Shown here piece by piece: positions 2,288 through 19,900 of a DNA stretch of 48,169 nt. The notes under the pieces are model-generated. The model ran no database searches. It was not told the origin of the DNA and worked only from the letters and a program-made list of their open reading frames with translations. The stretch comes from a virus. The DNA is taken from positions 1-48,169 of the IMG/VR virus record IMGVR_UViG_3300030118_000538. One strand, written 5' to 3'. The first letter of the stretch is position 1; each line of letters begins with the position of its first letter. A program made the translations under genes and the position numbers.

Positions 2288-2293
2288 AATCTA

Positions 2294-2322: not shown

Positions 2323-2326
2323 TCTT

Positions 2327-2367: not shown

Positions 2368-2402
2368 ATGATATGAAATGATAACAAAATGAAGGAAACG
2401 AA

Positions 2403-4856: not shown

Positions 4857-4857
4857 T

Positions 4858-5574
4858 ATGGCTAATTGGGTAAATCAAATAATAACAATCTATACCGAAG
4901 ATAAGGACAGATTGCAGACTATAAGAAAACATTTGAAAACAAAGGATAGTAATGAAGAGTTACTTCATTTTGATTTAAATAATCTTGTAAAGATGCCAGA
5001 AGAACTTAAAGGTATTAACTGTATGAAAACAAGCGAAAATGGCAAGTTGCTTGATATTTATTATAAAGAAGAAGATGCAAAACCTTTTATGGATTGGGAA
5101 CAAATGATCAAAGGGCAAAATCAAAGGGTGAATACCGATGACATGATGAAGCGTCTTAAAGAAATACAAATAGACGAAGTAACAATCAAGCGTTACAAAA
5201 AAGAGTTTGGTTCGGCTTACTGGTATGACTGGTGCAACGAAAACTGGGGAACTAAATGGAACGCTTGGGCAACTAATGTGAAAGAAGAGGACATAATATC
5301 AACATCACAAGCACCTAGTTTATTTATGTTAATTTATGAAATTGAAACAGCTTGGTCACCACCTTTTGGGTGTATGCCTAACTTTTTCAAGTTCATAGAA
5401 GCACATGACTGCACTGCCAAGTGGGTATGTAACCCAGATAAATACATCCAAGACTTAACTGATGCTGAAGAAGAAGATGTAAGTGCATTGATCGTCAGAT
5501 CATATGGCGAAGCAACAGCAGTAAAACAAGAATTTTTGGCAAAACATAAAGCCATGATGGACACATTTAATTAG
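4858..5574 (+). CDS. Api92/YubB-like protein (DUF1281-type)
   Basis: Starting at the ATG at 4858 (MANWVNQI), which is better placed behind GGAG than the ATG at 4846, the protein has 238 residues. The segment WYDWCNENWGTKWNA is the hallmark of Api92-like proteins, which have a ferredoxin-like N-terminal domain and occur on plasmids and phages. A later run, WSPPFGCMPNFF, is also typical. The biochemical function of the family is not established. The start overlaps the previous gene's end, so it belongs to the same early operon. Confidence 0.8.
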   Translation: MANWVNQIITIYTEDKDRLQTIRKHLKTKDSNEELLHFDLNNLVKMPEELKGINCMKTSENGKLLDIYYKEEDAKPFMDWEQMIKGQNQRVNTDDMMKRLKEIQIDEVTIKRYKKEFGSAYWYDWCNENWGTKWNAWATNVKEEDIISTSQAPSLFMLIYEIETAWSPPFGCMPNFFKFIEAHDCTAKWVCNPDKYIQDLTDAEEEDVSALIVRSYGEATAVKQEFLAKHKAMMDTFN

Positions 5575-5582
5575 GGGGTAAC

Positions 5583-6353
5583 ATGAGAAATATAAAAAAA
5601 GGACAACTCGTACAGAAAGGAAAGCATGGTGATATTTATAAAATATTAAATGTTTCGTCTGAAAAGATAAATGGTTTTGTAAGAGAAGAAGTTTTAGTCG
5701 GATGTTTACATAATAATCAAGCTGTAAGCATACCTGCTAGTGAGATTTCAGATAAAAGAATCTGGAAAGATGTCAACGAAGATAATATTAGAACACAAAT
5801 CGTTGAAAGAAAAATTATGCGTAATCCTGATGGTAGCGTAGTAATTTTGTCAGAAACAGTAGTTTCAACACAAAATGAAGAGAATGCTGATATACAAAAG
5901 ATAGTAGCTAAGAAAAAATATCCAGACACTGCTCTTGGTAAAGCCATGAACGATGCTATATCTAAATCAGAGGCAGATAAGATTGTGAATATTGGACATA
6001 TAACCAATGTTCATACTGCAAAAGAAAAAGATGAAAAAGCAACGCCTACCCCTGATCATACAAAGTTTGGTCATCTTAGATATGACAGCTTGGATGTTTT
6101 AGGTCAGGTTTATGGACAACACAGCAGTGTAATAAAACAAAGCTCAGGTAAGTTTCATAAAGGTATGGCTACTTTACATCAACAATGTCTTGATAGATTT
6201 AGAGATGGCGACATAACTCTTTATGATCTAAGAAAATATTCACCTAACAGTAAGACAGGAAAAAGTTTGAGTCTTGAAGGTACAATAGCTAGATTGAATA
6301 AAGCGATCTGGCATTATGGTACTGAACAAGAAAGAAAACATTATGGATGGTAG
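5583..6353 (+). CDS. Hypothetical early protein
   Basis: A 256-residue protein eight bases after the Api92-like gene, with GGGGTAAC before its ATG. Residues 1-75 look like a small beta-rich domain (GQLVQKGKHGDIYKILNV). A charged middle is followed by a helical C-terminal third around HKGMATLHQQCLDRFRDGD, ending in RKHYGW. I do not recognise a family. Its place directly before a recombination nuclease fits a DNA-metabolism operon. Confidence 0.75.
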   Translation: MRNIKKGQLVQKGKHGDIYKILNVSSEKINGFVREEVLVGCLHNNQAVSIPASEISDKRIWKDVNEDNIRTQIVERKIMRNPDGSVVILSETVVSTQNEENADIQKIVAKKKYPDTALGKAMNDAISKSEADKIVNIGHITNVHTAKEKDEKATPTPDHTKFGHLRYDSLDVLGQVYGQHSSVIKQSSGKFHKGMATLHQQCLDRFRDGDITLYDLRKYSPNSKTGKSLSLEGTIARLNKAIWHYGTEQERKHYGW

Positions 6354-6695
6354 GTGAAGGGTAGAACGCCAACGAGAGCAGAGAAAGAACACATGGACAA
6401 AGTTCGTGATCTAGGTTGTATTATTTGCCGACAGCAAGGCAAAGGCAGACGACCCTGTGAGATACATCATGTGTATGGCAAGACCAAAAAAGCAAAAGGA
6501 GATTTCAAAGGCAGTCATTTTTATGTGTTGCCTTTATGCTTTGAACATCATCGCATGGGTAGCGATAAAGAACCAATAAGCCGACATCCATACAAAGCTA
6601 GATTTGTTGCAGCTTATGGCACAGAAGAGTCATTATTAGATTTAGTTGATGACCTTTTAAAACTGGATGAATACTCTGCTGAACTTCCTTTCTAA
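6354..6695 (+). CDS. Ref-like RecA-dependent HNH nuclease
   Basis: This 113-residue protein starts with GTG directly after the upstream stop (TAG-GTG). It has the zinc-supported HNH layout of the phage P1 Ref family: C22-x2-C25, then EIHHV with H38-H39, then LPLCFEHH with C62 and H65-H66. It closes with HPYKARFVAAYGTEESLL, the typical Ref ending. P1 Ref cuts DNA at RecA-formed displacement loops. Here it ends the recombination operon that also holds the nuclease and annealing protein. A generic HNH endonuclease of the DUF968 type is the alternative. Confidence 0.8.
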   Translation: MKGRTPTRAEKEHMDKVRDLGCIICRQQGKGRRPCEIHHVYGKTKKAKGDFKGSHFYVLPLCFEHHRMGSDKEPISRHPYKARFVAAYGTEESLLDLVDDLLKLDEYSAELPF

Positions 6696-6699
6696 ATAG

Positions 6700-6728
6700 T
6701 TGACACTTATTCCACATTGGGATAATAT
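6700..6728 (+). promoter_or_regulatory. Early promoter with operator in the spacer
   Basis: TTGACA at 6700-6705 and TAATAT at 6723-6728 have 17-base spacing. The operator ATTCCACATTGGGAT lies at 6709-6723, between the two boxes, so an occupied site would block polymerase. The promoter serves the 83-residue gene at 6768 through a structured leader shared with the gene at 7192. Confidence 0.8.
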
Positions 6729-6731
6729 TGA

Positions 6732-6761
6732 GGCTCGTTAAATTGAGCCGAAAGGCAGGAG
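6732..6761 (+). promoter_or_regulatory. Structured leader with GAAA tetraloop before the ribosome site
   Basis: The transcript holds GCC-GAAA-GGC (6747-6756) immediately before AGGAG. Upstream GGCTC (6732-6736) can instead pair with GAGCC (6745-6749), which would open the small hairpin. A 21-base stretch (6741-6761) recurs exactly at 7166-7186. The repeat suggests selection on translation or mRNA stability, or duplication of a promoter cassette. Confidence 0.55.
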
Positions 6762-6767
6762 CATAAA

Positions 6768-7019
6768 ATGGAAAATGTAAATCAACAACTTAGAAATGAT
6801 GTACCTACATGGTTACTCGGATTATTTGAAAACTACGATGGGGTACATTTGACTAATCACAAAAATGAGGGCGAAAAGCAACACTTACTAGATTGTGCTG
6901 AAGCTGTTATTGAAATAGTAAACAAAGACTTTACTGGATATAACATTGAGGTTTCAGCTAGTGATCTTGTAGATTGCTATATACACGATAGTGTTTGTAG
7001 TCCTCTTAATGGTGGGTAA
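6768..7019 (+). CDS. Hypothetical early protein
   Basis: This 83-residue protein has its own repressible promoter and shared leader. It is acidic and mostly helical, with two cysteines near the end (DCYIHDSVCSPLNGG). I do not recognise a family. A strong promoter and AGGAG ribosome site suggest abundant early expression, as seen for phage host-takeover proteins, but that role is a guess from context. Confidence 0.7.
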   Translation: MENVNQQLRNDVPTWLLGLFENYDGVHLTNHKNEGEKQHLLDCAEAVIEIVNKDFTGYNIEVSASDLVDCYIHDSVCSPLNGG

Positions 7020-7028
7020 TATTAACTA

Positions 7029-7112
7029 GCTTTGTCTTTTGGTACTTGGCAAAGCATTGAGAAGGGAACGATCATCTCCTAAGATACAAACAATAATGGT
7101 AGTTTCCTTCTC
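7029..7112 (+). ncRNA. Candidate structured RNA in intergenic region
   Basis: Between the genes at 6768 and 7192 lie 172 bases without a gene. They contain a 6-bp stem, GCTTTG (7029-7034) with CAAAGC (7050-7055). A second stem of 11 pairs joins GAGAAGGGAAC (7059-7069) to GTTTCCTTCTC (7102-7112), with one G-U pair and a 32-base loop. No U-run follows, so this is not a textbook terminator. It could be a small RNA, a processing site or an anti-terminator. Confidence 0.4.
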
Positions 7113-7123
7113 TCTAAAAAGTG

Positions 7124-7153
7124 TTGACATATATTCCAATTTGGGTTTATAAT
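7124..7153 (+). promoter_or_regulatory. Early promoter with operator in the spacer
   Basis: TTGACA (7124-7129) and TATAAT (7148-7153) are both perfect sigma70 boxes with an 18-base spacer. The operator ATTCCAATTTGGGTT fills 7133-7147, directly before the -10. It drives the small-gene operon from 7192 to 8318. Confidence 0.85.
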
Positions 7154-7165
7154 AGACACATAATT

Positions 7166-7186
7166 AATTGAGCCGAAAGGCAGGAG
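7166..7186 (+). promoter_or_regulatory. Second copy of the GAAA-tetraloop leader
   Basis: This is identical over 21 bases to 6741-6761, including GAGCCGAAAGGCAGGAG. The upstream GGCTC pairing partner found at 6732 is absent here, so the two leaders would fold differently while sharing the same ribosome site. Confidence 0.6.
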
Positions 7187-7191
7187 ATAAA

Positions 7192-7545
7192 ATGAAATAC
7201 TTAGTAATAAATCCAGAAACCTACAGAGTCTTGATCAGACAGTATGGTTCATCAAGATTGTTTGACACTAAATCTGGTGCAAAACGATCTTTAAATACAC
7301 ACATCAAAAAGTTAGCTGCAAGAAAAGCCGAATATGTAGAAAGATTTGGTGTAGATGGTTTTGATAATCAAACAGGTAGAGAACTAGACGAGATGAAAAA
7401 AGGTGTTGTTATTGATGAAAAAACATTCAACGAAAAAGAACCTTTAGTAATCAAAAAGGACTTCATGACAGGACAGACCTTTGTTGAGCCTTTAAATACG
7501 CCTCACTACGCAAGTAGATCATCAGAATCTTATTGGAGCAGTTAA
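7192..7545 (+). CDS. Hypothetical early protein
   Basis: The ATG at 7192, five bases after AGGAG, gives 117 residues (MKYLVINPETYRV). The frame continues upstream to a TTG at 7168, but that codon lies inside the structured leader and is rejected. The protein is basic in its first half (KSGAKRSLNTHIKKLAARK) and ends in a serine-rich tail. Many marine phages have small proteins of this kind; the function is unknown. Confidence 0.7.
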   Translation: MKYLVINPETYRVLIRQYGSSRLFDTKSGAKRSLNTHIKKLAARKAEYVERFGVDGFDNQTGRELDEMKKGVVIDEKTFNEKEPLVIKKDFMTGQTFVEPLNTPHYASRSSESYWSS

Positions 7546-7546
7546 A

Positions 7547-7729
7547 ATGAAAATATCAGAGCAAATTCTAAATGAGTTATACAAAAAGTATAACATCACA
7601 GATGACACTAATATTTTTGAGATCAAGAATATTATGAATGCCGAAGATTATGCCAAATGGGAACTTGCTTTTAAGTACCCAAATGGTAAACCACTAGAAG
7701 TTATAGAGGGATTTAAAGATGGAGTTTGA
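7547..7729 (+). CDS. Hypothetical small protein
   Basis: A 60-residue protein beginning one base after the previous stop. It is mixed helical and charged (MKISEQILNELYKKYNI) with no recognised family. The tight spacing places it in the operon from promoter 7124. No catalytic motif is visible. Confidence 0.6.
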   Translation: MKISEQILNELYKKYNITDDTNIFEIKNIMNAEDYAKWELAFKYPNGKPLEVIEGFKDGV

Positions 7730-7931
7730 AATACTTGACCCTGAGGTGATGAACTTTTGCGGACATCCTATAAAGATCATTACAGATGAAGATAAAAAAT
7801 ATTTAGGGGATTATCATAGAGTAGCTACGTTTGAATGTGACATACAAGGTATAGATAGAGACGAGCATATACTTTTTGCAGGTAGGGGTATAGGTTTCTT
7901 TATTAAAGATTATAGTAAAAAACAATCATGA
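7719..7931 (+). CDS. Hypothetical small protein
   Basis: A 70-residue protein overlapping the previous gene by 11 bases, with GGAG-like sequence before the ATG. It appears beta-rich (GHPIKIITDEDKKYLG, ILFAGRGIGFFIKDY). No family is recognised. Confidence 0.6.
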   Translation: MEFEILDPEVMNFCGHPIKIITDEDKKYLGDYHRVATFECDIQGIDRDEHILFAGRGIGFFIKDYSKKQS

Positions 7932-8143
7932 ATCTTCAACATAAATATTACACCTACGAAGGCTATCATCAGATACTAGAGAGAGTAAGAGGCATTCTTG
8001 AATCTAAGATAGATAAAGAAGCTGTTGATCTGGAAACTAAAATATCTAATGGAAAAATCAAACGCTGCCTTGAAGAAATTGATAGCTTTGAGACAGAAAT
8101 AGAAACTATCATATCAGGAAGGGAGGATATGGCTAATGGATGA
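7928..8143 (+). CDS. Hypothetical small coiled-coil protein
   Basis: A 71-residue protein whose ATGA start overlaps the upstream stop. It is almost wholly helical and charged, with coiled-coil character at residues 15-62. No family is recognised. Confidence 0.6.
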   Translation: MNLQHKYYTYEGYHQILERVRGILESKIDKEAVDLETKISNGKIKRCLEEIDSFETEIETIISGREDMANG

Positions 8144-8318
8144 GTTTTTGTATGACAAAAAAGATTCTTTTCAAAATAACTTTGCTAGATGGTATCACAT
8201 GAATTGTACTGAAAGAGAAATGTATAATGAGAAACCACTTACTAAAAAAGAAGCATTAAGTGTCTTTGAAAACTTCTTGGGAAGAAGGTTTCCCAACTTG
8301 ATCTACAGGATTGACTGA
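8136..8318 (+). CDS. Hypothetical small protein, last gene of the early arm
   Basis: A 60-residue protein preceded by GGGAGG and overlapping its upstream neighbour by eight bases. It is aromatic-rich (NNFARWYHMNCTEREMYN) with a helical C-terminal part. It converges on the leftward gene at 8537 and their coding ends overlap by 63 bases. That overlap is unusual, but both frames have acceptable starts. Confidence 0.55.
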   Translation: MDEFLYDKKDSFQNNFARWYHMNCTEREMYNEKPLTKKEALSVFENFLGRRFPNLIYRID

Positions 8319-8537
8319 ACTTTTACTTTCAGAAGCATACTTGATATTAAGACCTGCTAAAGTACAAAGACGATTCTTCTCATCAAGACCTTTGCTTGTG
8401 ATCTTATAACCTTCCTCTGTTTTTTCTACAAAGCCAAGCTGAACTACATCTTCTATAGCACCGCTAGGAGTTTCTTCTTTAAACATGACTGAAAGAATTG
8501 CACCTAATCGCTTGTTTTGCTTTTTACTTAGAGCCAT
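8256..8537 (-). CDS. Hypothetical protein, last gene of the late arm
   Basis: A 93-residue protein directly after the endolysin gene. It begins MALSKKQNKRLGAIL. The run AIEDVVQLGFVEKTEEGYKITSKGLDE resembles a winged-helix fold with a beta wing, as in small MarR- or PadR-like domains. The C-terminal 25 residues overlap the convergent early gene. No function is assigned. Confidence 0.65.
   Translation of the reverse strand: MALSKKQNKRLGAILSVMFKEETPSGAIEDVVQLGFVEKTEEGYKITSKGLDEKNRLCTLAGLNIKYASESKSSVNPVDQVGKPSSQEVFKDT
8277..8296. terminator. Hairpin in the convergent gene overlap, possible bidirectional terminator
   Basis: TTGGGAA (8277-8283) and TTCCCAA (8290-8296) form a 7-bp stem with a 6-base loop, where the early and late arms meet. 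An overlapping alternative stem, CTTCTT-GGG-AAGAAG (8273-8287), excludes the first. Neither side has a strong U-run, so termination is only suggested by position. Confidence 0.4.
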
Positions 8538-8981
8538 CTAAACTTCTATCCAGTCCTCCGCATTAAATAATAAACTTTCTGCCTTTCTTCGTCTAATCAA
8601 TCCTTCTAAAGTTTTGCCACCTGCTTTATTCCATCTACGCATTTCACTTGGCACTAACTCGTATTTGCCTTCATTAAGAACTTTTAACATGGTAGATGAA
8701 CGCAGATTGCCTACACCTAAATTAAAAGTCCATGCTACTAAAGCATCAAATTGACATTGGGTTAAAGGCACAGTCACATTATCTTCTACATAACCTTCAA
8801 ATAATTCTAAGTCCTTTTCTAGCATTTCATCTGCCATATCTTGTGTTATGGTCATGCCCTCTTTGACTCCTTCAGTATGTCCATAACCAATAGTAAGTAC
8901 ATTTGCACTACATAAATAACTTTCTAGTCTCAATCCTTCAAACTTTTTGATCAGACTAATTCCTTCTTGTGATGTTTTCAT
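8538..8981 (-). CDS. Endolysin, GH24 lysozyme family
   Basis: The ATG at 8981, after GGGGAGA, gives 147 residues; the upstream frame extension lies inside the nuclease gene. The N-terminal catalytic region has KKFEGLRLESYLCSANVLTIGYGHT spacing: E, then C in place of the usual D, then T, the E-C-T arrangement known in some phage lysozymes. FDALVAWTFNLGVGNLRSST and a late EGLIRRRKAE are also family landmarks. It cleaves peptidoglycan at lysis. No signal or SAR segment is present, so release needs a holin; a one-TM protein two genes upstream is a candidate. Confidence 0.93.
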   Translation of the reverse strand: MKTSQEGISLIKKFEGLRLESYLCSANVLTIGYGHTEGVKEGMTITQDMADEMLEKDLELFEGYVEDNVTVPLTQCQFDALVAWTFNLGVGNLRSSTMLKVLNEGKYELVPSEMRRWNKAGGKTLEGLIRRRKAESLLFNAEDWIEV

Positions 8982-8982
8982 A

Positions 8983-9381
8983 TTATTCTCCCCATGTTCC
9001 ATCTTCTCGTACTTTGGCGGTTTTTGTACCACCCCAGTATTCAACTGCGTGTCCTTCTTCAATAAGTAATTCACAAATGCTCTTACCATCTTCTGTAAAA
9101 GGGATGCCAAGTATTCGCCCATATTTGCCTTTACCTAATGATTGAATTTTGAATGAACCTACGCATAATTCAGTTAATCTTTCTTTAGCCTTCAAACCTA
9201 AGGCTTTTTCTTCAAGATTTCTAGTTCTGCTTTCAGGTGTGTCTATACCTGCTAAACGCACTCTTTGTTTGTGTAACATTACATCAAAACCAAGATCAAG
9301 AGTCACATCTATGGTGTCTCCATCTATTACCCTGTCTAAAATCGCATTATAGACAAATGGGGTGACGCTTGTTTTAGTCAT
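8983..9381 (-). CDS. Thermonuclease-like (SNase) nuclease
   Basis: From the ATG at 9381 the protein has 132 residues. SNase landmarks are all present: VIDGDTIDV, then RVRLAGIDTPE (first active-site Arg and the acidic site), then a helix with EEKALGLKAKE, then GKGKYGRILG (second Arg). No signal peptide is visible. It starts inside the end of the holin-like gene and ends two bases before the endolysin ATG, so it is an integral part of the lysis operon. It may degrade host DNA or lower lysate viscosity; the role is inference. Confidence 0.88.
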   Translation of the reverse strand: MTKTSVTPFVYNAILDRVIDGDTIDVTLDLGFDVMLHKQRVRLAGIDTPESRTRNLEEKALGLKAKERLTELCVGSFKIQSLGKGKYGRILGIPFTEDGKSICELLIEEGHAVEYWGGTKTAKVREDGTWGE

Positions 9382-9559
9382 CTTTATTTGGTGCAATCAT
9401 TTTTGCTTTACCTATGTTTAATGCGAGAATTTCTATTCCCTTATATAACTTACCCAAAAGCTCGTCATCCTTTGGTGTAGGCGTAATAGCTGCTATAAAA
9501 CTAGCAACACAAACTACAGAAGTAACAACAGTAACAATGCTCATTATTAAATCAAACAT
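9374..9559 (-). CDS. Small one-TM protein, candidate holin
   Basis: A 61-residue protein with one long hydrophobic helix (residues 4-26) followed by TPTPKDDELLGKLYKGIEIL and a basic, amphipathic tail. It has a strong AAGGAG ribosome site. Its position between the spanin pair and the endolysin, plus the single-TM design, suits a small holin or pinholin. Assignment rests on context and topology, since holins share no sequence motif. Confidence 0.6.
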   Translation of the reverse strand: MFDLIMSIVTVVTSVVCVASFIAAITPTPKDDELLGKLYKGIEILALNIGKAKMIAPNKDD

Positions 9560-9598
9560 AATTTACTCCTTGCGTTTCTTAGAGTGTAGCCGATATGA

Positions 9599-9979
9599 CT
9601 ATTTTTTACTAGAATCTTCTGTATCTTCTTTTTTATCGTATTCTCTATAATAAGCTACGATAGAAAGTATATTATTGGTATATCTGGTGATTTCTGCCAT
9701 GTTATTAGACAGATTTTGATACTGTTGAGTAGTTAAAGCATAGTAAGGCTTTGCAGGAGCTTTACCTTCTTCTACTAATTTCAGATACTCTTCCATTAGT
9801 TCTGGGGTGAGTATTTCAAACTTAACATCTACAAGCTGCATTTCTAAAGGTAAAGGCGGATGATACATTGGCGGTATTTCAGCAATAGTCCTAACCTCTA
9901 CTGGCTTTGCTTTCGGCAATATAGAGCATCCGCTTATTAAGAAACCTAAAATTAAAAAGCTAGTTATTGTTCTTATCAT
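9599..9979 (-). CDS. Outer-membrane lipoprotein, o-spanin-like
   Basis: This 126-residue protein has a lipoprotein signal with lipobox LISGC (C18), followed by a proline-rich stretch (IAEIPPMYHPPLPLE) typical of Rz1-type o-spanins. The later region, YYALTTQQYQNLSNNMAEI, is shared by a lipoprotein family common in marine phages. It overlaps the end of the upstream i-spanin-like gene by 20 bases, matching a two-component spanin. It would link to the inner-membrane partner and fuse the membranes at lysis. Confidence 0.75.
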   Translation of the reverse strand: MIRTITSFLILGFLISGCSILPKAKPVEVRTIAEIPPMYHPPLPLEMQLVDVKFEILTPELMEEYLKLVEEGKAPAKPYYALTTQQYQNLSNNMAEITRYTNNILSIVAYYREYDKKEDTEDSSKK

Positions 9980-10376
9980 CTTCTTCTCCTAAGTCAAACT
10001 TATTTGGATTTGTTATATCAACTAAATTTTCCATAACCTTTTTAGACGCATTGTTGACCCTTTTTTCAATAAGTTTTGGCTTCATTAGGGCAAGATTATT
10101 TAGATCATGCCTTGCAAACTTATTTCTTAGCTCAGTAACTGCTCTGTTAGCTTCAGCTTTCTCTTTTTCTAAAATATCAAGCTGTTTACTTTGTTTTTCC
10201 TGATTTGCAAGATAATTCTTAATTGACTCGTTTTGTTCGGATATTTTTGACTCAAGTACGATCTGGTTGCCCTCTAAAACTGCCATTTGATTAAATAAAT
10301 ACTTAATATAGAAGCCAGAGCCACTAATTGTAGCTAACAAAAGACCTCCTAAAATAATGCTCAATTTAAATCCCAT
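9960..10376 (-). CDS. Inner-membrane coiled-coil protein, i-spanin-like (Rz-type)
   Basis: A 138-residue protein with an N-terminal TM helix (residues 5-27) and a long periplasmic coiled coil (30-90). The segment ELRNKFARHDLNNLALMKPKLIEKRVN is characteristic of Rz-like proteins in many tailed phages. It is directly followed by the overlapping lipoprotein gene, so the two form the spanin complex. Its ATG lies 11 bases inside the end of the cyclase gene, tying the cyclase transcript to the lysis module. Confidence 0.8.
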   Translation of the reverse strand: MGFKLSIILGGLLLATISGSGFYIKYLFNQMAVLEGNQIVLESKISEQNESIKNYLANQEKQSKQLDILEKEKAEANRAVTELRNKFARHDLNNLALMKPKLIEKRVNNASKKVMENLVDITNPNKFDLGEEDDKNNN

Positions 10377-12141
10377 AAACTCTCAATGGATATAATTTAC
10401 CTTTAACACTGATGTCGTTTACATATCTTAAATCAAATGTAGTTGTATTTGCAGTGTTTTCACCAATTAAAACTGTTTCTTTTTGATCTTTTGTAGCACT
10501 TTCAAGCCTAGCAGCAGTGTTAACAGCATCTCCTATAGCTGTGTAGTCAAATCTTGTCTCACTACCCATATTTCCAATGACTGCATCGCCTGTATTGATG
10601 CCTATGCCTATTTCAACAGGCTCTATACCCTCTTCTACCAGTTTTTTATTAAGTTCTTCCATATTTTTAACAATATCCTTTGCACACTGTATGGCTCTGT
10701 CTACATGATCATCTTGATCTAATGGAGCATTGAATATTGCCATCATTGCATCGCCAATATACTTATCTACCATGCCTTCATTAGCCTGAACAGCGTTTTG
10801 TTGTGCTGTTAGTGCAGCATTCATAATATATGTAACCTTTTCTGGCGGTAAACTCTCGCTAAGTGATGTAAAACCACGCACATCTGTAAATAAAAAGGTT
10901 GCCTCCTTCTTTTCACCGCCTAATTTTAGTAAATTTGGGTTGTTTTGCAGCTTTTTAACTTGTTTTGGGTCTAAATAATGCTCAAACTGCTTTTTGATCT
11001 GTAATCGTAGCTTGAATTGCTCTCTAAAGTTTAAATAAAAGGCAACAGCACCAATTATGAACTGACTTATGAGTGTCCAACTCACATCTATAAGTAAACC
11101 TGACCTAATTTGCTGATAGCCATAGACTGCTGTAGAGGCAAATATAAGCAAAAATGACAACAAACCTAAGGTAACCCCTAAAAACCTAGTAGAGACCCAG
11201 AGAATAGCTATAGATAGCAAAAAAATACCTAATTCAACAGCTAGACTGTAATCAGGTATATATGGAGAGTTTTGCACCAGTAAAGATTCTGCTAAAGCTG
11301 CTTGTATATAGTGTGGTTCTAACAAACCAACTGGTGTAGATAATTGTGGCATGACACCCTTTGCAGTCACCCCTACAAATACAAACTTATCCTCTACATC
11401 CATTTCCTTCAAAGATGTTCCACGTGGAACAATCCATGAAATCCACTTTCTCCCCATACTATCTACTTTGACAGGCGGTATACCTTTTACAGTTATTTCT
11501 TCTATACCATTGTCATTTGTTTTTATTATGTAAGTATCTGAGCCAGTAAGAGCTTTGAGAACCTGCGTACCAAATGATGCTATCCAACCATCAGGGGTTC
11601 TATAAAGTAAGGGTATTCTTCTTACTAAATTATCCGCATCTACAGGTGCAGATGCTATACCTTCATATGCAACTTTAGATAGTTCTTTTATGTTTTGTAC
11701 TGTGCCATTTGAAAGAAAGCCACCTATATCATCACCAAGAATTACTGTTCCTGTAGTCTTTGGATATTGTTTATTATTATTCTCAAAAAGAGCTATAACA
11801 GAAGGAGTATAAGCAAGAGCAGCTTTGAAGTAGCCATCACCTCCAAACCTATCTTCATGTGGGAAAGCTAACACCCATCCAACACCTAATGCACCATTTC
11901 TAAGCAAATCTAAATGTATTTTTGCAAGTTCTTCTCTAGGAAATGGATAACCACCTGCAGCATCAACATCTTCCTCTGTAATATTAAGTATTACAAAGTT
12001 TCCAGATTCTTTTGGTGTGACTACAAAATTATCAAATATTTTGAGTTTCAGTATCTCTGTCGGTGTACTTTGGAATATAAGCGGTAGTGATAATACAACT
12101 AAAAGTAATAAGCCTTGTGAATATTTAGTTAGATTCTTCAT
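10366..12141 (-). CDS. CHASE2-domain class III adenylate cyclase
   Basis: A 591-residue membrane protein. TM1 is at about 8-25, an extracytoplasmic CHASE2 sensor at about 30-295 (including a predicted LLEPHYIQAAL end), and three closely spaced TM helices lie at about 300-375. A linker and a cytoplasmic class III cyclase domain follow at about 410-591. Both metal-binding aspartates are present (FLFTD420 and YIGD464), as are adenine-specifying K460 and D532 (RFDYTAIGD) and transition-state N541 and R545 (NTAARLE). It should therefore make cAMP, not cGMP, in response to a periplasmic signal. Full-length cyclases are unusual cargo for phages. It sits in the late operon after the FecR-domain gene. 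Confidence 0.95.
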   Translation of the reverse strand: MKNLTKYSQGLLLLVVLSLPLIFQSTPTEILKLKIFDNFVVTPKESGNFVILNITEEDVDAAGGYPFPREELAKIHLDLLRNGALGVGWVLAFPHEDRFGGDGYFKAALAYTPSVIALFENNNKQYPKTTGTVILGDDIGGFLSNGTVQNIKELSKVAYEGIASAPVDADNLVRRIPLLYRTPDGWIASFGTQVLKALTGSDTYIIKTNDNGIEEITVKGIPPVKVDSMGRKWISWIVPRGTSLKEMDVEDKFVFVGVTAKGVMPQLSTPVGLLEPHYIQAALAESLLVQNSPYIPDYSLAVELGIFLLSIAILWVSTRFLGVTLGLLSFLLIFASTAVYGYQQIRSGLLIDVSWTLISQFIIGAVAFYLNFREQFKLRLQIKKQFEHYLDPKQVKKLQNNPNLLKLGGEKKEATFLFTDVRGFTSLSESLPPEKVTYIMNAALTAQQNAVQANEGMVDKYIGDAMMAIFNAPLDQDDHVDRAIQCAKDIVKNMEELNKKLVEEGIEPVEIGIGINTGDAVIGNMGSETRFDYTAIGDAVNTAARLESATKDQKETVLIGENTANTTTFDLRYVNDISVKGKLYPLRVYGI

Positions 12142-12328
12142 GTTTTACGATGTACTCCTTACAATCTACCAAATAGCTTTTTAGCCTATCTGCTTGTTTA
12201 TAGTGAAAATCTCTATAATCAGGCTCTATTATGGCTTTTTCGTAGTGAAAGTCTATCATTCTGAGGATTAAAGCTATAGCATCTTGATAAGGCATCCTTA
12301 CTGCCGAGCTGAAAGTCCTTTTAGGCAT
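12125..12328 (-). CDS. Hypothetical 67-residue protein between FecR and cyclase genes
   Basis: A small basic helical protein (MPKRTFSSAVRMPYQDAIA) with aromatic and charged residues and no signal peptide. It starts at the stop of the FecR-domain gene and overlaps the cyclase start by 17 bases, so it is made with both. A cytoplasmic partner for one of them is possible but unproven. No family is recognised. Confidence 0.65.
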   Translation of the reverse strand: MPKRTFSSAVRMPYQDAIALILRMIDFHYEKAIIEPDYRDFHYKQADRLKSYLVDCKEYIVKHEESN

Positions 12329-13485
12329 TACGACCCCTGTATTATTCTTATAGTGGTATCACTGCCTCCATTGATCTTTATAGTGTTTGACACACCATCT
12401 TGTATCAGAATTACAGTATATGAGCCAGTGCCATCCAAATCTATTCTCGCTGTTTCGCTTACGCTTCTACGCAGACTTATTAGTTGCCCTGTAACAAGTG
12501 TAGTAATTTGTGTGTCAGGGTCTTTACCGATAAGTGTGCCAGATATATTGATACCAGTAGCTTCTGCAAGTTGATCTTCCTCTTCTTCTATTGCTAAAGC
12601 ATCTAAAACATTCAATAAATCTTCCAAAAAGTTCACATCCAAGTAATTTATATCTAGCTCTGTAAACTCTAGCTCTTTACTTTCTAAAAAATCTTCATTC
12701 AAATAATCTATATCCAAGTCATCAAAATCTAAATAACTTGCTTGTTTTGTCTGTGCATTATCTTCTACAAACCTCTCATCTTCTTTTGGTGGATTAACAA
12801 TCAACATATTATCTATAAGTTCTAAAGTGAGGTCTAAAATTACAGGCTTAGAGGGTGCAGATTCAAACATTTTAGCTGTTGTGGCTTCGTAAGGCTTATT
12901 CAGAGTTACACTACCTGCCATTGTAGTCACAATGATTTCACCAGAGGATATGCCTGTATCATCTGGCAAAAGTATAATTAACGACTCTCCTAATTCATTC
13001 ACTGTGCAAGTAAAGTCAGTTCCACGAATAGCAATGTTAGCTGTTGGAGTTTTCAGAGATATATTCTTTTTATCTATTTTATTGAGACTACCAGTGATAA
13101 ATCTAGCTGTACCACTGGCAAACTTTAACGCCATCTTAGTTTTACTAGGATTTGGGTCGTAGATGTATTCGTCTATTATCAAAGACGAGTGTTCTGTAAG
13201 TCTTACTTTAGAGTCATCTAAAAAACTGATTGCAATACGACCATTGGATGTACGAACATCGTCAAAACTTTGTATGCCGAAGTCTACCTTAGGAGCATAC
13301 TCATCATCACGAATTATTTTGGCATAGCCATTTAGTTCGCTTACTGCTCCAATGTCAACAACTTGTGCTTGTGCCTTGATCGTTTTGGTTGACGCAAACA
13401 GTACCATTAGAACCATTAGATATGATGCGAAGCCAGTCGTTGTCCAAAGTTGACTGTTGCGATATGTTGAATGTTCTGCTACCAC
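12328..13485 (-). CDS. Secreted FecR-domain protein with acidic repeat linker
   Basis: From a GTG at 13485 the protein has 385 residues; an ATG at 13416 (residue 24) is the alternative and leaves a shorter signal sequence. A hydrophobic segment at 17-37 ends near KAQAQ and looks like a Sec signal. The FecR domain spans about 70-165 (VRTSNGRIAISFLDDSKV, SLKTPTANIAIRGTDF). An acidic linker at about 234-308 repeats DLDIDYLNEDFLE-type units. A beta-rich C-terminal region, with curlin-like IKINGGSDTTIRI, follows. It has no anti-sigma N-terminal domain, so it is not a classic FecR regulator. It overlaps the curlin-like gene by up to 131 bases. Confidence 0.85.
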   Translation of the reverse strand: MVAEHSTYRNSQLWTTTGFASYLMVLMVLFASTKTIKAQAQVVDIGAVSELNGYAKIIRDDEYAPKVDFGIQSFDDVRTSNGRIAISFLDDSKVRLTEHSSLIIDEYIYDPNPSKTKMALKFASGTARFITGSLNKIDKKNISLKTPTANIAIRGTDFTCTVNELGESLIILLPDDTGISSGEIIVTTMAGSVTLNKPYEATTAKMFESAPSKPVILDLTLELIDNMLIVNPPKEDERFVEDNAQTKQASYLDFDDLDIDYLNEDFLESKELEFTELDINYLDVNFLEDLLNVLDALAIEEEEDQLAEATGINISGTLIGKDPDTQITTLVTGQLISLRRSVSETARIDLDGTGSYTVILIQDGVSNTIKINGGSDTTIRIIQGS

Positions 13486-14065
13486 CAGTTTGCTCTAATT
13501 TAAAATATTGACCTGCATAACCATCTCCATCAAAAGTAACTGTATTGTCGTTACCATCTAAGCTCATATAGTTGGTAGCTCCATCAGCGTCAATAGATGC
13601 AGTAATTGTATTACCACCTCCATTGATTATCCAATCTAAATCAAGTTGTGATGCTAATGCAGAAGTTGCTTGATTCAAGGTAAAAGTATTTGTGTTACCT
13701 GTGACATCAACATAAATATTAGAATTATCTGCTCCAAAGGTATTTGTAGGGTCAGTTTGTATGTTGAATACATTACTGTCACCATCAAATTCAAAAAAGC
13801 CAGTATAAGTATCACTGGTAATATCTCCTAAAAATTTATTTAGATTACCTATTTGGTTTATATCAAGTGTTGCAGATGTAATGTCTAAGTCTAAGGCAGT
13901 CATACTTCCTGCTGTAGCATCGCTACCACCGATGATATTACCAGAACCAAGCTGCTCAACATCTATGTTTACAGTTGCTCCTGACTGATCTATATAAACC
14001 TCATTATCGGCAGTATATGCTACTCCCATATAAAATAAGGCTACTAATAAACTAACTATCTTCAT
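13355..14065 (-). CDS. Secreted curlin-repeat protein (CsgA/CsgB-like amyloid candidate)
   Basis: A 236-residue protein with a Sec signal peptide (MKIVSLLVALFYMGVAYTA). The mature part is rich in N, D, T, G and Q. It carries curlin-type strand-turn units such as VEQLGSGNIIGG, LDINQIGNLNKFLG, FTLNQATSALA and FNISQQS, spaced roughly 20-45 residues apart, which is looser than E. coli CsgA. It ends with VCVNQNDQGTSTSC, holding its only two cysteines. It directly follows the CsgG gene, the pore that exports curlins, so it is the likely substrate. Identification as a curlin rests on the Q-x-G-x-x-N pattern and context. A phage surface or decoy protein is an alternative. Confidence 0.75.
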   Translation of the reverse strand: MKIVSLLVALFYMGVAYTADNEVYIDQSGATVNIDVEQLGSGNIIGGSDATAGSMTALDLDITSATLDINQIGNLNKFLGDITSDTYTGFFEFDGDSNVFNIQTDPTNTFGADNSNIYVDVTGNTNTFTLNQATSALASQLDLDWIINGGGNTITASIDADGATNYMSLDGNDNTVTFDGDGYAGQYFKLEQTGGSRTFNISQQSTLDNDWLRIISNGSNGTVCVNQNDQGTSTSC

Positions 14066-14852
14066 TTTCTACAATACTCCAAAAACCTGATTTATGACCT
14101 TCATGTATAGTTTGTAGAACTGCAGTTTCTATAGCTGCTTGGAGTGCTAGATTGACTGATTCATTTTCGGTCATACCATTCTCTACTTCTACTAGCTCTG
14201 TTTGATCTGCCACAAATCTAAATACATCTTGGCTAACACCCACACTAAGTATGGTTTTGGTAACCAAGACTTCTAATAAAATGCGACCAGTAGATACTGA
14301 TACTGTGCGTAAAGATACAATTACTGTATCTTGTCGGTACTCTTTGGAACTTCCTATTCCTAAGTACCTAGCACCATAACCGCCTGATTTTACATTACTT
14401 TCATATCCTACAACACTACCCTCCATTAGTAAACCTGCAAATAATAATGGTTTAAGTTGTTGTTTTTCTTCAAAATTTTCTCTTGTAGATCGTATAATTT
14501 GTCTTTCTTTGGTTAAATTATCTAATCCTGTGCGTTCTACAACATCAAAAAAACCTGAATGCTGTAAAGCTCTTATTAGATAAATATGCGGTGCTTGTGT
14601 TACTGCTGTACTAAAAGTAGCAAAAGAACTGTTACCTCTTCTTTGTCCTGTGTCGTCTTTAAAAGCTGTAGGATAAACAGCTACAGTAGGTTTTCTCTCA
14701 GGTTTGCCAACTTCTGCAAGTCCTTTAATAACAAGAGAATTTATCTGTGCTTCTTGCTTTGTGGGTTCATTCTGCCACTTGCCATTTATTGCACAACTAG
14801 AAAGTAAAATTACCAATAGGCAAAGTGATAACAGTCGTACCACCAGTTTCAT
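14052..14852 (-). CDS. csgG: CsgG-like curli secretion channel lipoprotein
   Basis: Beginning at the ATG at 14852 the protein has 266 residues, near the 277 of E. coli CsgG, with lipobox LLSSC (C20). Conserved CsgG segments include DDTGQ, TFSTAVTQAPHIYLIRAL, MEGSVVGYESNVKSGG, GARYLGIG, VSLRTVSVSTGRIL and TKTILS. In E. coli CsgG forms a nonameric outer-membrane channel for curlin export. By my alignment the constriction residues Y51 and N55 are replaced by Ser and Thr while F56 is kept, so the pore may be wider or less selective. The start lies 56 bases inside csgF and has no ribosome site, suggesting coupled translation. In-frame codons upstream to a TTG at 14948 lack a signal peptide. Confidence 0.93.
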   Translation of the reverse strand: MKLVVRLLSLCLLVILLSSCAINGKWQNEPTKQEAQINSLVIKGLAEVGKPERKPTVAVYPTAFKDDTGQRRGNSSFATFSTAVTQAPHIYLIRALQHSGFFDVVERTGLDNLTKERQIIRSTRENFEEKQQLKPLLFAGLLMEGSVVGYESNVKSGGYGARYLGIGSSKEYRQDTVIVSLRTVSVSTGRILLEVLVTKTILSVGVSQDVFRFVADQTELVEVENGMTENESVNLALQAAIETAVLQTIHEGHKSGFWSIVENEDS

Positions 14853-15306
14853 CGGTAATTGTAAGTGTAATAAACTCGCCATCTGACACATAGGTAATAG
14901 TATTTCCTTCCAAAGTAATAGTACCTTCTGTACTAGGAGTTTCTCCAAACAAGTTTTCTACTAATTGCCTAGATAACTGTGCGTATATACGACTTTCTAA
15001 ATTTCTTATAAACCTTGCTAATGTTGTGTTTTCTTTGTCTCTTTCTATCTCTTCTTGTAATGCCTTGATTTCATCTTTCAAGGCTTTCTTTCTGTTAAAT
15101 TCTTGATTTTCTATTGTCAAATAATGCGATGATGTGCCTATACCTGAAAAACTAGGACTTTTGAATTTGAATACCATTTCATCTGCAAAAACACTCTGAA
15201 TAGAACCAACTAAGACTGTTAAAACAATAAAAGACAAACCAATTATGGCAAACCACATCTTGAATTTTTCATCTTTTGCTTGTTGTGCTTTTGTCTTTTT
15301 TTTCAT
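14797..15306 (-). CDS. csgF: CsgF-like curli assembly factor
   Basis: A 169-residue protein with a basic N-terminus, hydrophobic segment at 18-36 and a probable cleavage after VFA (residue 41). The mature start DEMVFKFKSPSFSG closely matches the N-terminus of E. coli CsgF, the part that plugs into the CsgG channel. The C-terminal portion (LSRQLVENLFG, then TITLEGNTITYVSDGEFITLTITDE) matches CsgF's helix and beta region. It anchors curlin nucleation at the pore in bacteria. Gene order csgF-csgG-curlin differs from E. coli csgDEFG and csgBAC. No csgE, csgC or csgD is seen in the window. Confidence 0.85.
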   Translation of the reverse strand: MKKKTKAQQAKDEKFKMWFAIIGLSFIVLTVLVGSIQSVFADEMVFKFKSPSFSGIGTSSHYLTIENQEFNRKKALKDEIKALQEEIERDKENTTLARFIRNLESRIYAQLSRQLVENLFGETPSTEGTITLEGNTITYVSDGEFITLTITDETGGTTVITLPIGNFTF

Positions 15307-15550
15307 TATCTTTAAGTTTATTTTCTTCCTTAAGCTCTAAAACTGTATTTACCTTCTGTTGTAATCGTATCATATCTTGGTCTAAAAGACGCAACTGGTC
15401 AGTCAATCTTATAATGGTTTTTTTCATGTCCTCTACAGCAGGACTTATCGTATTTGTTATTGTTTGCCATACATACCAGACGAAATATCCTAGTCCTACA
15501 ACCATAACTACAGGAAAACCAAAGTCAGCTATTAACTGTCCAATGTCCAT
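15269..15550 (-). CDS. Small one-TM coiled-coil protein (paralogue of the gene at 15843)
   Basis: A 93-residue protein: TM helix at about 11-32 (FPVVMVVGLGYFVWYVW), then a coiled coil through residue 75 with LLDQDMIRLQQKVNTVLEL, then a highly charged lysine-rich tail. Its pattern matches the next upstream gene along its length, indicating duplication. Similar proteins near tail genes in marine phages are sometimes called holin-like. It overlaps csgF by 38 bases. Function is unproven. Confidence 0.7.
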   Translation of the reverse strand: MDIGQLIADFGFPVVMVVGLGYFVWYVWQTITNTISPAVEDMKKTIIRLTDQLRLLDQDMIRLQQKVNTVLELKEENKLKDNEKKDKSTTSKR

Positions 15551-15843
15551 TAATCTCTTCTTGCGTCTATTTTTCCATCTTCTACAAAATTCTCTGCTCT
15601 TGCAATTCTTTGCAAATCTGGACTAAGATCAAGTGCTGCAGATACACTTGTATCTATTCTAATCATGTCATTGTTCATTATAGAAGCTCTTGTAATAAGC
15701 ATTTGTGTTATGCCTTGTATAGTTTTTATCTCTGCAACAAGACCATCCATTAGCTGCTTCATAACTAAAAATATAAAGTAAGCCATAACCAAAGCACCTG
15801 CTATTGGTACACCTACCTCAGCTATCAGATTGAACGCTTCCAT
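15550..15843 (-). CDS. Small one-TM coiled-coil protein
   Basis: A 97-residue protein with a TM helix at about 8-29 and a helical region with MNNDMIRIDTSVSAALDL. It aligns with its downstream neighbour (LIAxxGxP near the start, DMIR and LxL later), so the two are tandem paralogues and could form a hetero-oligomer. The stop and the neighbour's ATG share one base. Holin-like or anchoring roles are possible; no motif decides. Confidence 0.7.
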   Translation of the reverse strand: MEAFNLIAEVGVPIAGALVMAYFIFLVMKQLMDGLVAEIKTIQGITQMLITRASIMNNDMIRIDTSVSAALDLSPDLQRIARAENFVEDGKIDARRD

Positions 15844-15982
15844 ATAATCTTTTGTTTTCCTCTTTTAAGTGTTTTAAATAATGTTTTAAGTTTCTTTCTA
15901 TTCTGTAGTTTGCATAGAGTTTGAATCCTATAAGACCGAACAATACAAGCAAGTTTAAAAAGATAACAAAAAACTCTATCAA
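15818..15982 (-). CDS. Small TTG-initiated membrane protein (54 residues)
   Basis: This gene begins with TTG at 15982, overlapping the previous stop in TTGA, and has AAGGAG seven bases upstream. The product starts (M)IEFFVIFLNLLVLFGLIG, a TM helix, then a basic helical tail with HYLKHLKEENKRLYG. It ends at TGA (15818-15820), overlapping the next gene by 26 bases. It fills an otherwise empty 135-base stretch in a cluster of small membrane proteins. The alternative frame across the same interval gives a highly basic, cysteine-containing product that looks spurious. Confidence 0.65.
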   Translation of the reverse strand: MIEFFVIFLNLLVLFGLIGFKLYANYRIERNLKHYLKHLKEENKRLYGSVQSDS

Positions 15983-16308
15983 TTATCTTCTCCTTTGAAT
16001 TTTTTACTTTGACCTGAAGTACCTGCATATATACCAAATACTGCTGCCATAGCACCTACAACAATAGAAACTAAAGCAGATTGCTCTAAATTAGGCTCAG
16101 GTAGTTCCATAAACCATATGACAACTTTATAAAGCAGAACTATATATACACTGACAAATATTCTTGGAAATATCCTCCAAGCATCTACAGTTTTAGCCAA
16201 ATGCACCCATTTCATGTAAGGATTATCTCCATCATTTACAGGCGTGACATCAATATCTAGCTCTAATTTTTTCTTTATTGGCTCATCTTGTTTTGGCTCG
16301 TCAATCAT
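15979..16308 (-). CDS. Two-TM membrane protein, holin candidate
   Basis: A 109-residue protein with an acidic N-terminus, a segment YMKWVHLAKTVDAWRIFPR typical of a marine-phage membrane family, and TM helices at about 52-70 and 77-95. The tail is charged (GQSKKFKGEDN). Two TM helices with a charged tail suit a class II holin, but it lies 7 kb from the endolysin. It competes with the one-TM protein at 9374 for that role. Confidence 0.7.
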   Translation of the reverse strand: MIDEPKQDEPIKKKLELDIDVTPVNDGDNPYMKWVHLAKTVDAWRIFPRIFVSVYIVLLYKVVIWFMELPEPNLEQSALVSIVVGAMAAVFGIYAGTSGQSKKFKGEDN

Positions 16309-16531
16309 AAAAATAACCTCCTATTTGATCATATCCAAACTGTATTAACTTTTTTTGATAAATCATTGCTTCATTTATATCATATATCCTCTCTGTTTTG
16401 ATCTCATCCTCTGGGTTTGGTTTTTGCAAAAGCTCTATCACCTCTACTGTGTCATCTTCAAGTATCTTAAAAGATACATAATGACCTTCATGCACCCAAA
16501 GTCCTGACCAAATTAGTAAATCATCCATCAA
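16301..16531 (-). CDS. Hypothetical small tail-region protein
   Basis: A 76-residue acidic protein (MMDDLLIWSGLWVHEGHYVSF) with a predicted beta region followed by a helix. It overlaps both neighbours by four to eight bases. It is not recognised. Position after the tail chaperone-like gene suggests a tail or host-interface role. Confidence 0.65.
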   Translation of the reverse strand: MMDDLLIWSGLWVHEGHYVSFKILEDDTVEVIELLQKPNPEDEIKTERIYDINEAMIYQKKLIQFGYDQIGGYFYD

Positions 16532-16914
16532 GTAGGTTCGGTTGGAAAAGTTGTGCTTTCAACAGTATTTTCTTTGCTGTCTGTATAAGATGCCATCATA
16601 TCTCTTAGTTGTTGCCTATAAGTTGCCCATTCTGCTTTTTTGCTGTCTGTTAATGGACTATCTGGCATTTGTGTCCAATCACTATCTTTTAAGAGTATAT
16701 TTCTCTTTTGTCTTACTTCTGCGGTATTTTGACCTGAAATATAATCATCATAATCAACAATTTTAGTGCCATTCCATTTCTTTTTTGATATTTGATACTT
16801 GCCTTCTACATATCCATATGTTGAGGTGTCCAAATGACTTATTTCATCAATAGAATTTATGTTTCTTGTAGATATAATTTGCCCAGTTGATTTTAAGTAA
16901 ATACTGATGTCCAT
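16528..16914 (-). CDS. Tail assembly chaperone-like protein (XkdW type)
   Basis: The 128-residue protein has an N-terminal beta region and the segment ILLKDSDWTQMPDSPLTDSKK followed by WATYRQQLRDM, the signature of small phage tail or fibre assembly chaperones. Its start abuts the stop of the J-like tip protein gene. It probably helps fold or attach fibre proteins. This is separate from the frameshifted chaperone at 24193. Confidence 0.8.
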   Translation of the reverse strand: MDISIYLKSTGQIISTRNINSIDEISHLDTSTYGYVEGKYQISKKKWNGTKIVDYDDYISGQNTAEVRQKRNILLKDSDWTQMPDSPLTDSKKAEWATYRQQLRDMMASYTDSKENTVESTTFPTEPT

Positions 16915-19900
16915 TATCTAAATACTCCTTCTACAGATAAAGTATATTGTAATCTTGGACTTGCTACGCCAAAAAGACCGCCAAACCCATAGATATACAA
17001 TACTGTTGAGCTAGATGTGCTTGTAGTAATAGAAAAAGCATGAGATACACCTAGACCCTCTGCAAACACAAGATTAGTGAACTGGTTGGCATTTGTACCT
17101 AATCCAGAGATGGCAGTTACACTTGCACCTGTTGCATAACCACAAATTAGATTGATAGCTGTAGAATGGACTTGTGTACCAACTGGATTCACAAATAATC
17201 TAATAAGAAAAGTTTTTGAAACTGCTGTTACTGTAGCAGGTATAGTCAAGGTTATAGGAGTTGATAACCTTTCAGGCGTTGTGAAACTGGTATTACTACT
17301 TGTGTTAGTGTTTGACATCGTATATATGCCTTCATCTGCAAGAACTGCACCAAGCGTACCTGCGTTAACATGACTGTTTGCATCAAAAGTTCCTACATTT
17401 AAACCATTTGAAGTAACTGATAGAGTTGTTCCATTTAATTTTATGCGATTGGCATTAAGTTCACCTGCAGTAATGTTACTTGCGGTTATGTTATTTATAT
17501 TCAAAGTAGAAGCGTCTATTGTTCCTGCTGTAAGCGTTCCTACATCTGCAGATATTGCTGAGAGGGTGGCAACATTTATTTCTGTTGCTGTGACCGCATT
17601 TGCAGCTATGGAATCTTGATTTACTGCATCTGTATCTATAAGGGCATTTGTAACTGCGTCATTAACAATGTCAGCAGTATTAGCATTAGTAAAGTTACCT
17701 TGTACTGAACCTACAAAGTTAGAATGCACATCTGAATGATTTACTGCTCTTACCCAATAATAATAAGTGACACCTGCTGTAAGACCACTAGCTTTGCCAT
17801 CTACAAAGGTGGAAACAGAGTTTGGCGAACCATATTGAGTGTTAATTAAGCCATCACTATCACTTGTTGGTGTGCTGTTAGAAGTCTTTCGGTATATTTT
17901 TACTGCTTTTAGATCGCTGTTATTTGGATTTGTATAACTGACGACAATATTAAAAGGCTTACCTGTTGAAGCAGATAAACCACTTGGGTCGCTAGGAGCT
18001 GCACTGGCAGCAGCTATCGTAATGTTCACATTACTCGTATAGGCAGAATAAACATTACGATCTGAAAAATGCCTTACTCTTACATTGTATTGTTGTCCTG
18101 CGGTGACATTCGGTATAAAGGCTTGACTTGTTCCTGCACCTACAACTATAGCTTGATAAGCTGAATCGGTAGACAATTTATATGAAACCTCAGTTCCAAA
18201 CAGATAAGGAGATGTACTGTTAGTCCAAGTCGCTTTTATGTTTATTTTTGAAGTAGTGCCATCCAAAGTAAGAACTTGAGACAACGCAAGATTGCTTGGT
18301 TGTGACATCTCAAAAGAACCTGCAGGAACTTCACTTATTGGTCCTTGAGTAATAGGAGTTACATAATCATTAGTTACAAAGTCATACACAGCAGCTTCTA
18401 TTTCTTTCAAAACAAGTCTTGTTGCTGCAACAGGTGCTTCATCTATTTCTTTGAACTCTAAGTTAGTAGATACAACCTCAAACATTTTGTTAGAAAAATT
18501 AAGCCTTTCATTTGTTATGTAAACAAAGTCTGCAGGTTGCAATCTCATAAACTTAGTTGTGGTTAGCAATGATACTTGTAAAGTCTTTCTTTGATGTTGC
18601 AAAGCAATCTTAGCTAATCTTTCTGCAGTGGTATTGGTTTGTGTGTAAGGCAGTTGCACTTCCATTCTTTTTAAATAGTTAGCGTTTGCTTCACCAGTTG
18701 GTACATCTTCTGAGACAAAAGTTGCATTTGTTAGCTCTGGCGTATCTGTAGCTTGAAAATTATTATTTTTATCAACAAAAACAGCTTTAACACTATTGAA
18801 TAGCTCATTTGACTGCGTATTTTTTGTAAGATTGACAGCTTCTAATAGATCATCGTCTGTAATCGTTAAAGATGGTGTTTGGGCTGCAGCTACAAATACA
18901 TTGAACATACCATTCGTAAAAGTTAATTTACCACCACAAGCACTTAACAAGCCTTCTATGACACCTGTACCATCGGCACTCATATTGGTAAAACCATTTG
19001 CGGTATATCTTTCCTCTGAGACACCTCCAATATTAGAAACTGTTTGCTCACAAGTATTAGCTGCAGACATGAAACCTCCTGCGTTTGCAGACAGGTTTAA
19101 TTCAGTAGAAGTAGCTTTCAAACCATAAGTAGTATCTGAAAGATAATCTAAAATACATAAAGCAGGATTATCCGACCATTCATGAGTAGATGCTGTACCG
19201 AGTCTATGTGAACCATCACCTCCTACTGTAGTGTCTTTTCTAGGGTCATATAGTTTTTTACCTTTTATCTTCATTGAAATCTTCGGTACTTGAGGTAATT
19301 TTTCTGGGTCATAGATCATTTCTAAATACATATAAGAACAACCTGTGAGTTTAAAATTATTATCTATGATTGTACTTCCATGCGTAGTCCTAGCTAAAGA
19401 ATCATGTGCTGTCTGACTGCCATCATGAAAGGTAAACCTAGCAAGTCTACCGCTACCAAAATTGTTATCGTTTTCTGTATTTGTAAAATCAGAGTTTGTT
19501 ACAGTGTAGATTTTATTATCAGTACCTGCACCAGAAGAGGTCGTTGTAGTTGTAGTTATAGTGACATCATTGAAATGTAAACTTGTAAATCCTTCTACTT
19601 CGTGTCCTGAAAACACTACCATCATAGATAATTTGTTGTTATCAGTGCCTGTAGTTCTTAAAAAATTTATAACACCACCAACTACAGTCTCTCCATATAT
19701 TATTTGTCTTGGCTTTATTGCACCTCTTGTAGTAGCTTTTGTGCCAAAATTAGCGTTGTTTGCTTCTATTCCTTTGGAGGTCATCATGCCTATACCTGCT
19801 GATATAAGCGTTGTAGCAAATGTCATGATTGCTACTGTTGCAAGTGATGGCAAAGCCACTGCTAAGGCAGCAGGTAATAAAGCTCCTCCTGTAGCTACAA

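Follow-up and report, generated by a model that had tools for sequence, protein, structure and literature searches.

A 591-aa protein encoded by an uncultivated marine phage, whose gene content suggests a siphovirus-like form, is an intact, membrane-bound and probably active CHASE2 adenylate cyclase. Its gene closes a curli (type VIII secretion) module, and we would give a probability of roughly one half to the reading that this membrane-anchored class IIIb cyclase is the active output arm of an envelope receptor within the module. In the window (the whole stretch of 48,169 nucleotides analysed here), the minus-strand order is csgF-csgG-curlin-fecR-(67-aa ORF)-cyclase; the cyclase comes last and is followed by spanin, nuclease and lysozyme genes:

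15550..15843, minus strand: 97-aa single-TM protein of the same PHROG as the next (phrog_18771, 7.6e-23)
15269..15550, minus strand: 93-aa single-TM protein with a helical tail (phrog_18771, 2.7e-25; weak match to holin phrog_4898, 4.2e-5)
14797..15306, minus strand: CsgF (Pfam CsgF, 5.7e-20)
14052..14852, minus strand: CsgG, outer-membrane secretion pore lipoprotein (Pfam CsgG, 2.1e-52; NCBIfam CsgG, 2.6e-54; start inferred)
13355..14065, minus strand: secreted curlin-like repeat protein, probable fibre subunit (NCBIfam CsgA, 6e-4, weak and under the cut-off)
12328..13416, minus strand: secreted FecR-domain protein (Pfam FecR, 3.7e-11; start inferred from the signal peptide)
12125..12328, minus strand: 67-aa ORF between fecR and cyclase (relatives in few loci)
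10366..12141, minus strand: CHASE2 class IIIb adenylate cyclase by prediction, 591 aa, with TM, CHASE2, three TMs and cyclase domain (Pfam, model, residues, solved relatives)
9960..10376, minus strand: i-spanin, Rz-like (phrog_739, 5.9e-13)
9599..9979, minus strand: o-spanin, Rz1-like lipoprotein (phrog_812, 1.9e-13)
8983..9396, minus strand: SNase-family nuclease (Pfam SNase, 1.7e-12)
8538..9122, minus strand: phage lysozyme, endolysin (Pfam Phage_lysozyme, 1.5e-47)

The cyclase frame starts with ATG, and Pfam domains CHASE2 (residues 17-308, E 8.1e-25) and Guanylate_cyc (residues 411-582, E 3.5e-21) were both found far above cut-off. Hydropathy placed one TM helix before CHASE2 and three after it, which is the layout of a CHASE2 receptor. 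The AlphaFold2 model of the full protein, based on 52 aligned sequences, reached a mean pLDDT of 89.1 and a pTM of 0.69. Its cyclase domain displayed the class III catalytic fold: superpositions with Cya2, CyaC of S. platensis and CyaB of P. aeruginosa reached target TM-scores of 0.81-0.87, and the same three proteins appeared again near the top of a profile search. An earlier note on this DNA, drawn from the letters alone, had described an intact CHASE2-adenylate cyclase with TM helices and a large sensor in the late region of a phage, overlapping the i-spanin gene. Domains, residues, hydropathy and model all agreed with this description, the spanins do adjoin the cyclase, and the overlap is real and amounts to 11 bases. 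Its list of catalytic residues was right for D420, K460, D464, N541 and R545 but not for D532, a conserved Asp that does not specify the base. This role belongs to T534, as the base-specifying residue stands seven positions before the Asn.

The residues expected of class IIIb are thus present: D420 and D464 for metal, K460 and T534 for adenine, N541 and R545 for the transition state. Position 534 was T or S in 180 of the 181 viral rows with a letter there, which by sequence assigns these proteins to class IIIb. Likewise, among 186 viral rows (counted where a letter was present), conservation reached 183/183 for D420, 182/182 for K460, 182/182 for D464, 180/181 for N541 and 181/181 for R545, and each of these five was found in 80 of 80 bacterial relatives. 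In cultured Methylophilales phage Melnitz (L083, 7917-9968) the transition-state Asn is replaced by Ser and Thr534 by Asp, the sole such row of about 181; with two catalytic positions altered, activity in that one lineage may be lost or changed. The cyclase of locus L028 (3269-5100) was broken across two frames, either a damaged copy or a sequencing error. Median dN/dS (Nei-Gojobori, pairs with dS 0.1-0.8) within the cyclase was 0.056 for the cyclase domain (269 pairs), 0.136 for CHASE2 (277) and 0.239 for the TM region (275), and whole-gene medians were 0.138 for FecR, 0.147 for CsgG, 0.131 for CsgF, 0.100 for curlin and 0.206 for i-spanin, all of them descriptive only since the pairs have common ancestry. 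The viral copies, about 180 in number, are under strong purifying selection and their catalytic residues are almost invariant.

The remaining module genes were less uniform in their matches. The curlin-like protein had no Pfam match of note; its family comprised 191 frames in viral loci, some with clear curlin repeats. No Pfam or PHROG match was obtained for the 67-aa ORF. The FecR model was of low confidence (pLDDT 68) and consisted of two regions rich in beta strands with a poorly predicted linker between them. FecR proteins carry at their C-terminus (12328-12400 in the window) a motif like T-I-x-I-x-Q-S resembling curlin repeat ends; a curlin repeat in this tail was considered and rejected, at a profile probability of 1.9%. 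Both in the window type and in the type of cultured Pelagibacter phage HTVC008M, csgF is preceded by a pair of small single-TM proteins that belong to one PHROG, and profile searches of the window's 93-aa and 97-aa proteins revealed no kinase domain.

The record also carries TerL, portal, an HK97-type capsid and a tail protein with a Phage-tail_3 domain. A 98-base repeat common to both its ends indicates that it is probably a complete genome. Megablast of positions 1-20000 against 50,697 phage records recovered no relative, and terminase and capsid relatives pointed to no clear host. Within the window, no tRNA and no Rfam match (RNA element) at the gathering threshold were found, and promoter matches were fewer than in shuffles. 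Contigs of other samples (L002/L085, which are one contig, and L084) showed the same cyclase linkage at 99.9-100% identity. The gene thus belongs to the phage contig, a point that the earlier note had left to be checked, and a chimeric assembly was rejected in view of this recurrence in independent contigs and of the hundreds of relatives found in viruses.

Scans of viral sequences yielded at least 599 relatives with the window cyclase and 585 with that of HTVC008M, the best 80 being kept in each case, and 36 viral loci with CsgG. The loci are therefore best matches and not a random sample, and some share one contig (L002/L085, L016/L099); L001, the window itself, was removed from the groups used for counts. 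In these viral loci the cyclase recurred behind CsgG and FecR in 80 of 81 with room: where at least 3.5 kb lay upstream, both genes were present in 47/47 window-set and 33/34 HTVC008M-set loci of the best-80 sets. Conversely, all 19 CsgG loci with at least 4 kb downstream contained the cyclase. Eight annotated phage records had a cyclase match, from HTVC008M (2), Melnitz (4) and 'Acinetobacter phage MD-2021a' (2). The latter pair (CAKLQH020000011.1 and CAKLQF020000009.1) is annotated cyaA, matched in the cyclase domain only and may be bacterial DNA. In a likelihood tree of 96 of the 267 rows, bacterial cyclases were separated from viral ones by a branch of support 100. The window-type clade (30 rows, support 100) stood apart from the clade formed by HTVC008M and Melnitz, and the two are mutually only about 32-34% identical. 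Loci L113, L114, L116 and L117, counted in the window set according to the scan, were grouped with the HTVC008M type by the tree.

The nearest bacterial cyclases were about 33% identical or less and came mostly from Alphaproteobacteria. None of their 80 loci displayed CsgG or CsgF nearby, and a CsgF search in 20 genomes holding such relatives was equally negative. For FecR, 57 loci extended 6 kb or more upstream of the cyclase: the gene was found on the cyclase strand, no more than 6 kb away, in 18 of them (within 300 bases in 15) and not in the other 39. As the FecR model is viral, the counts of loci with FecR are lower bounds. In several bacterial loci FecR lay inside a very long ORF, an adhesin by eye. 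Csg loci over the cut-off occurred in five of 385 genomes, all alphaproteobacterial; FecR, cyclase and the two small membrane genes were absent from these five and from a sixth, sub-threshold locus. According to PMC9599517, FecR and the cyclase are likewise missing from bacterial curli operons. Acquisition of a whole bacterial curli operon was thus not supported by this small sample of five loci. Since FecR occurs near bacterial cyclases, where csg genes are absent, and csg loci have neither FecR nor cyclase, the FecR-cyclase pair is a bacterial unit, and its junction with curli was seen here in phages only. The occurrence of such pairs in curli-less bacteria points to a FecR-coupled envelope receptor.

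We propose that late in infection the phage would produce CsgG/CsgF pores and export curlin-like proteins, which may form fibres. The secreted FecR protein would sense secretion or fibre assembly and, by analogy, act on the periplasmic CHASE2 domain, thereby switching the cytoplasmic cyclase dimer. The benefit of the module would most likely lie in the fibre coat or the pore, through cell clumping and the barring of competing phages, with cAMP as a feedback signal. This reading is favoured by the near-invariant catalytic residues, by the cyclase-domain dN/dS of 0.056 and by the regular company of CsgG and FecR in viral loci. That the FecR-CHASE2 cyclase may report on coat or pore is suggested by the bacterial pairing, by a Burkholderia operon of FecR and a CHASE2 kinase that controls biofilm (PMC5192318, accessible text), and by the CHASE2 cyclases of S. 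meliloti, which sense through an outer-membrane barrel and signal via the CRP-type Clr (PMC13001267, accessible text). Against such a receptor stand the lack of a CRP-type reader in the phages and SAR11 (see below), the pLDDT of 68 of the FecR model, the two altered catalytic positions in Melnitz and the 39/57 bacterial loci in which the viral model found no FecR; against fibre clumping, the Melnitz authors observed none in infected cells, according to the accessible part of their report.

Alternatively, the module may be part of the lysis cassette, and the time of lysis may be set either by cAMP or by the CsgG pore, whose sensor would be the cyclase. A spanin lies at most 2.5 kb downstream of the cyclase in 39/69 window-set loci, the 93-aa protein weakly matches a holin family, and a role of the phage CsgGF pore in lysis is proposed, on other grounds, in the accessible text of PMC9004378. 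Yet spanins were downstream in 0/66 HTVC008M-set loci and upstream in 2/20 (best-80 sets), so that the proximity of cAMP output to lysis put forward in the earlier note is real in the window clade but missing from HTVC008M-like loci. Moreover, the neighbourhood was inherited within one phage clade and the 39 loci are not independent. Accessory genes are often located near lysis genes in any case, and we regard control of lysis timing as unlikely. Reprogramming of the host through a CRP-family regulator, also favoured by the earlier note, is improbable as well. PF00027 (cNMP_binding) was absent from the window and from 22 other module-bearing phage records, several of which are fragments. Two of 385 genomes were recognised as SAR11 by 16S probes that we take to mark this group (all four matched both genomes), and the order of one of them supplied 97 genomes. 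In this order, which is that of the HTVC008M host and may not be that of the window phage's host, PF00027 was found in 6/97 genomes, always weakly (27.7-29.2 bits, cut-off 27.5), in frames of 870 aa in five genomes and 372 aa in one; class III cyclases numbered 0/97. By eye, the one 870-aa frame inspected (L294) resembles an acyltransferase fusion and not a transcription factor. The search itself works, as 139/190 Alphaproteobacteria at large were over the cut-off, but it detects the cNMP_binding fold only and a reader of another fold escapes it. The abundance of cNMP-binding proteins in these 190 genomes, and a window phage not tied to a SAR11 host, speak for such reprogramming; with no CRP-type reader in the 23 phage records and no CRP-like protein in SAR11, where the main match is a large protein unlike a regulator, it is unsupported.

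The cyclase may have simply travelled with FecR, its product being without role, and the missing reader, the two altered positions in Melnitz and the fragmented copy in L028 are consistent with this. A passenger of this kind has, in our view, only a small chance of being correct, given a dN/dS in the cyclase domain below those of CHASE2 and the TM region, and catalytic residues near-invariant across two clades as distant as these. Since the cyclase domain is related to that of Pycsar cyclases (2e-29 for the best PADLOC match), counter-defence was also considered, in which a host immune sensor for cyclic nucleotides would be flooded or jammed by the product of the enzyme. Pycsar-type effectors use a cNMP-binding sensor; this sensor is nearly absent from SAR11, and the constant partners of the cyclase are curli and FecR genes, not counter-defence genes, which makes this highly improbable. 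In a Pycsar pyrimidine cyclase (PycC) the adenine Lys/Thr pair is lost and an effector adjoins. Such an identity was rejected, since K460 and T534 are kept and the record has no cNMP domain; none of the six module proteins matched a Pycsar effector.

The envelope receptor can be taken one step further, although we consider this extension doubtful. Ocean phages might run a cAMP circuit in cells having neither class III cyclase nor known cAMP receptor, bringing along the sensor, the enzyme and an unrecognised reader (perhaps one of the small membrane proteins before csgF), and in this way tie the end of infection to the state of their amyloid coat. In any case, an active site that hardly varies in phages whose host order has no CRP-type receptor would mean either a new cAMP reader or an unexpected use of cAMP.

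The core of this system was already known, since PMC9599517 (mSystems 2022) reports, in its accessible text, csgF, csgG, csgA/B, FecR, a 'histidine kinase' and adenylate cyclase in SAR11 podo- and myophages, as a viral T8SS module distributed and expressed ocean-wide, and the module is annotated in cultured HTVC008M. Curli genes are also described in pelagimyophages (PMC7029224, accessible text). The words CHASE, CRP, receptor, catalytic, spanin, holin and lysozyme do not occur in the main text of PMC9599517, nor do cyclase and FecR in that of PMC9004378, and no other paper on a phage cyclase with curli was recognised in the literature search, supplements and subscription papers being outside its scope. 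The phage cyclase is therefore in print, yet its chemistry, sensor type and reader are not discussed in these main texts. New here are the module in a siphovirus-like phage with adjoining lysis genes, a cyclase in a separate viral clade, catalytic residues that hardly vary and stand under strong purifying selection, FecR-CHASE2 cyclase pairs in bacteria without curli, and the finding that no CRP-type cAMP reader could be recognised in the 23 phage records or in SAR11.

Compared with the viral T8SS module and HTVC008M, the window displays the same order of csgF, csgG, curlin, fecR and adenylate cyclase, with a curlin that is weak by profile. Its cyclase aligns with that of HTVC008M over 94% of the length at 32% identity, in a separate clade. 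The window differs by its siphovirus-like type, by spanins and lysozyme directly downstream, and by a 67-aa ORF where the second curlin gene stands. At the place of the 'histidine kinase' of PMC9599517 it has the 93/97-aa ORFs, which are no kinases by profile; they were matched by position, and the difference may be a matter of naming. Among bacteria, CyaD1, CyaD2 and CyaK of S. meliloti share CHASE2 and a class III cyclase with the window protein (PMC13001267, accessible text). Alphaproteobacterial CHASE2 cyclases often follow a FecR gene as well, but they are about 33% identical at best, chromosomal and without csg genes nearby. In the Burkholderia operon, as far as the accessible text of PMC5192318 goes, a secreted FecR-domain protein adjoins a CHASE2 sensor as in the window, the output being a histidine kinase there and a cyclase here. 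These likenesses suggest that FecR and CHASE2 together form a portable unit for sensing at the envelope, combined with other surface genes in bacteria and with curli in phages.
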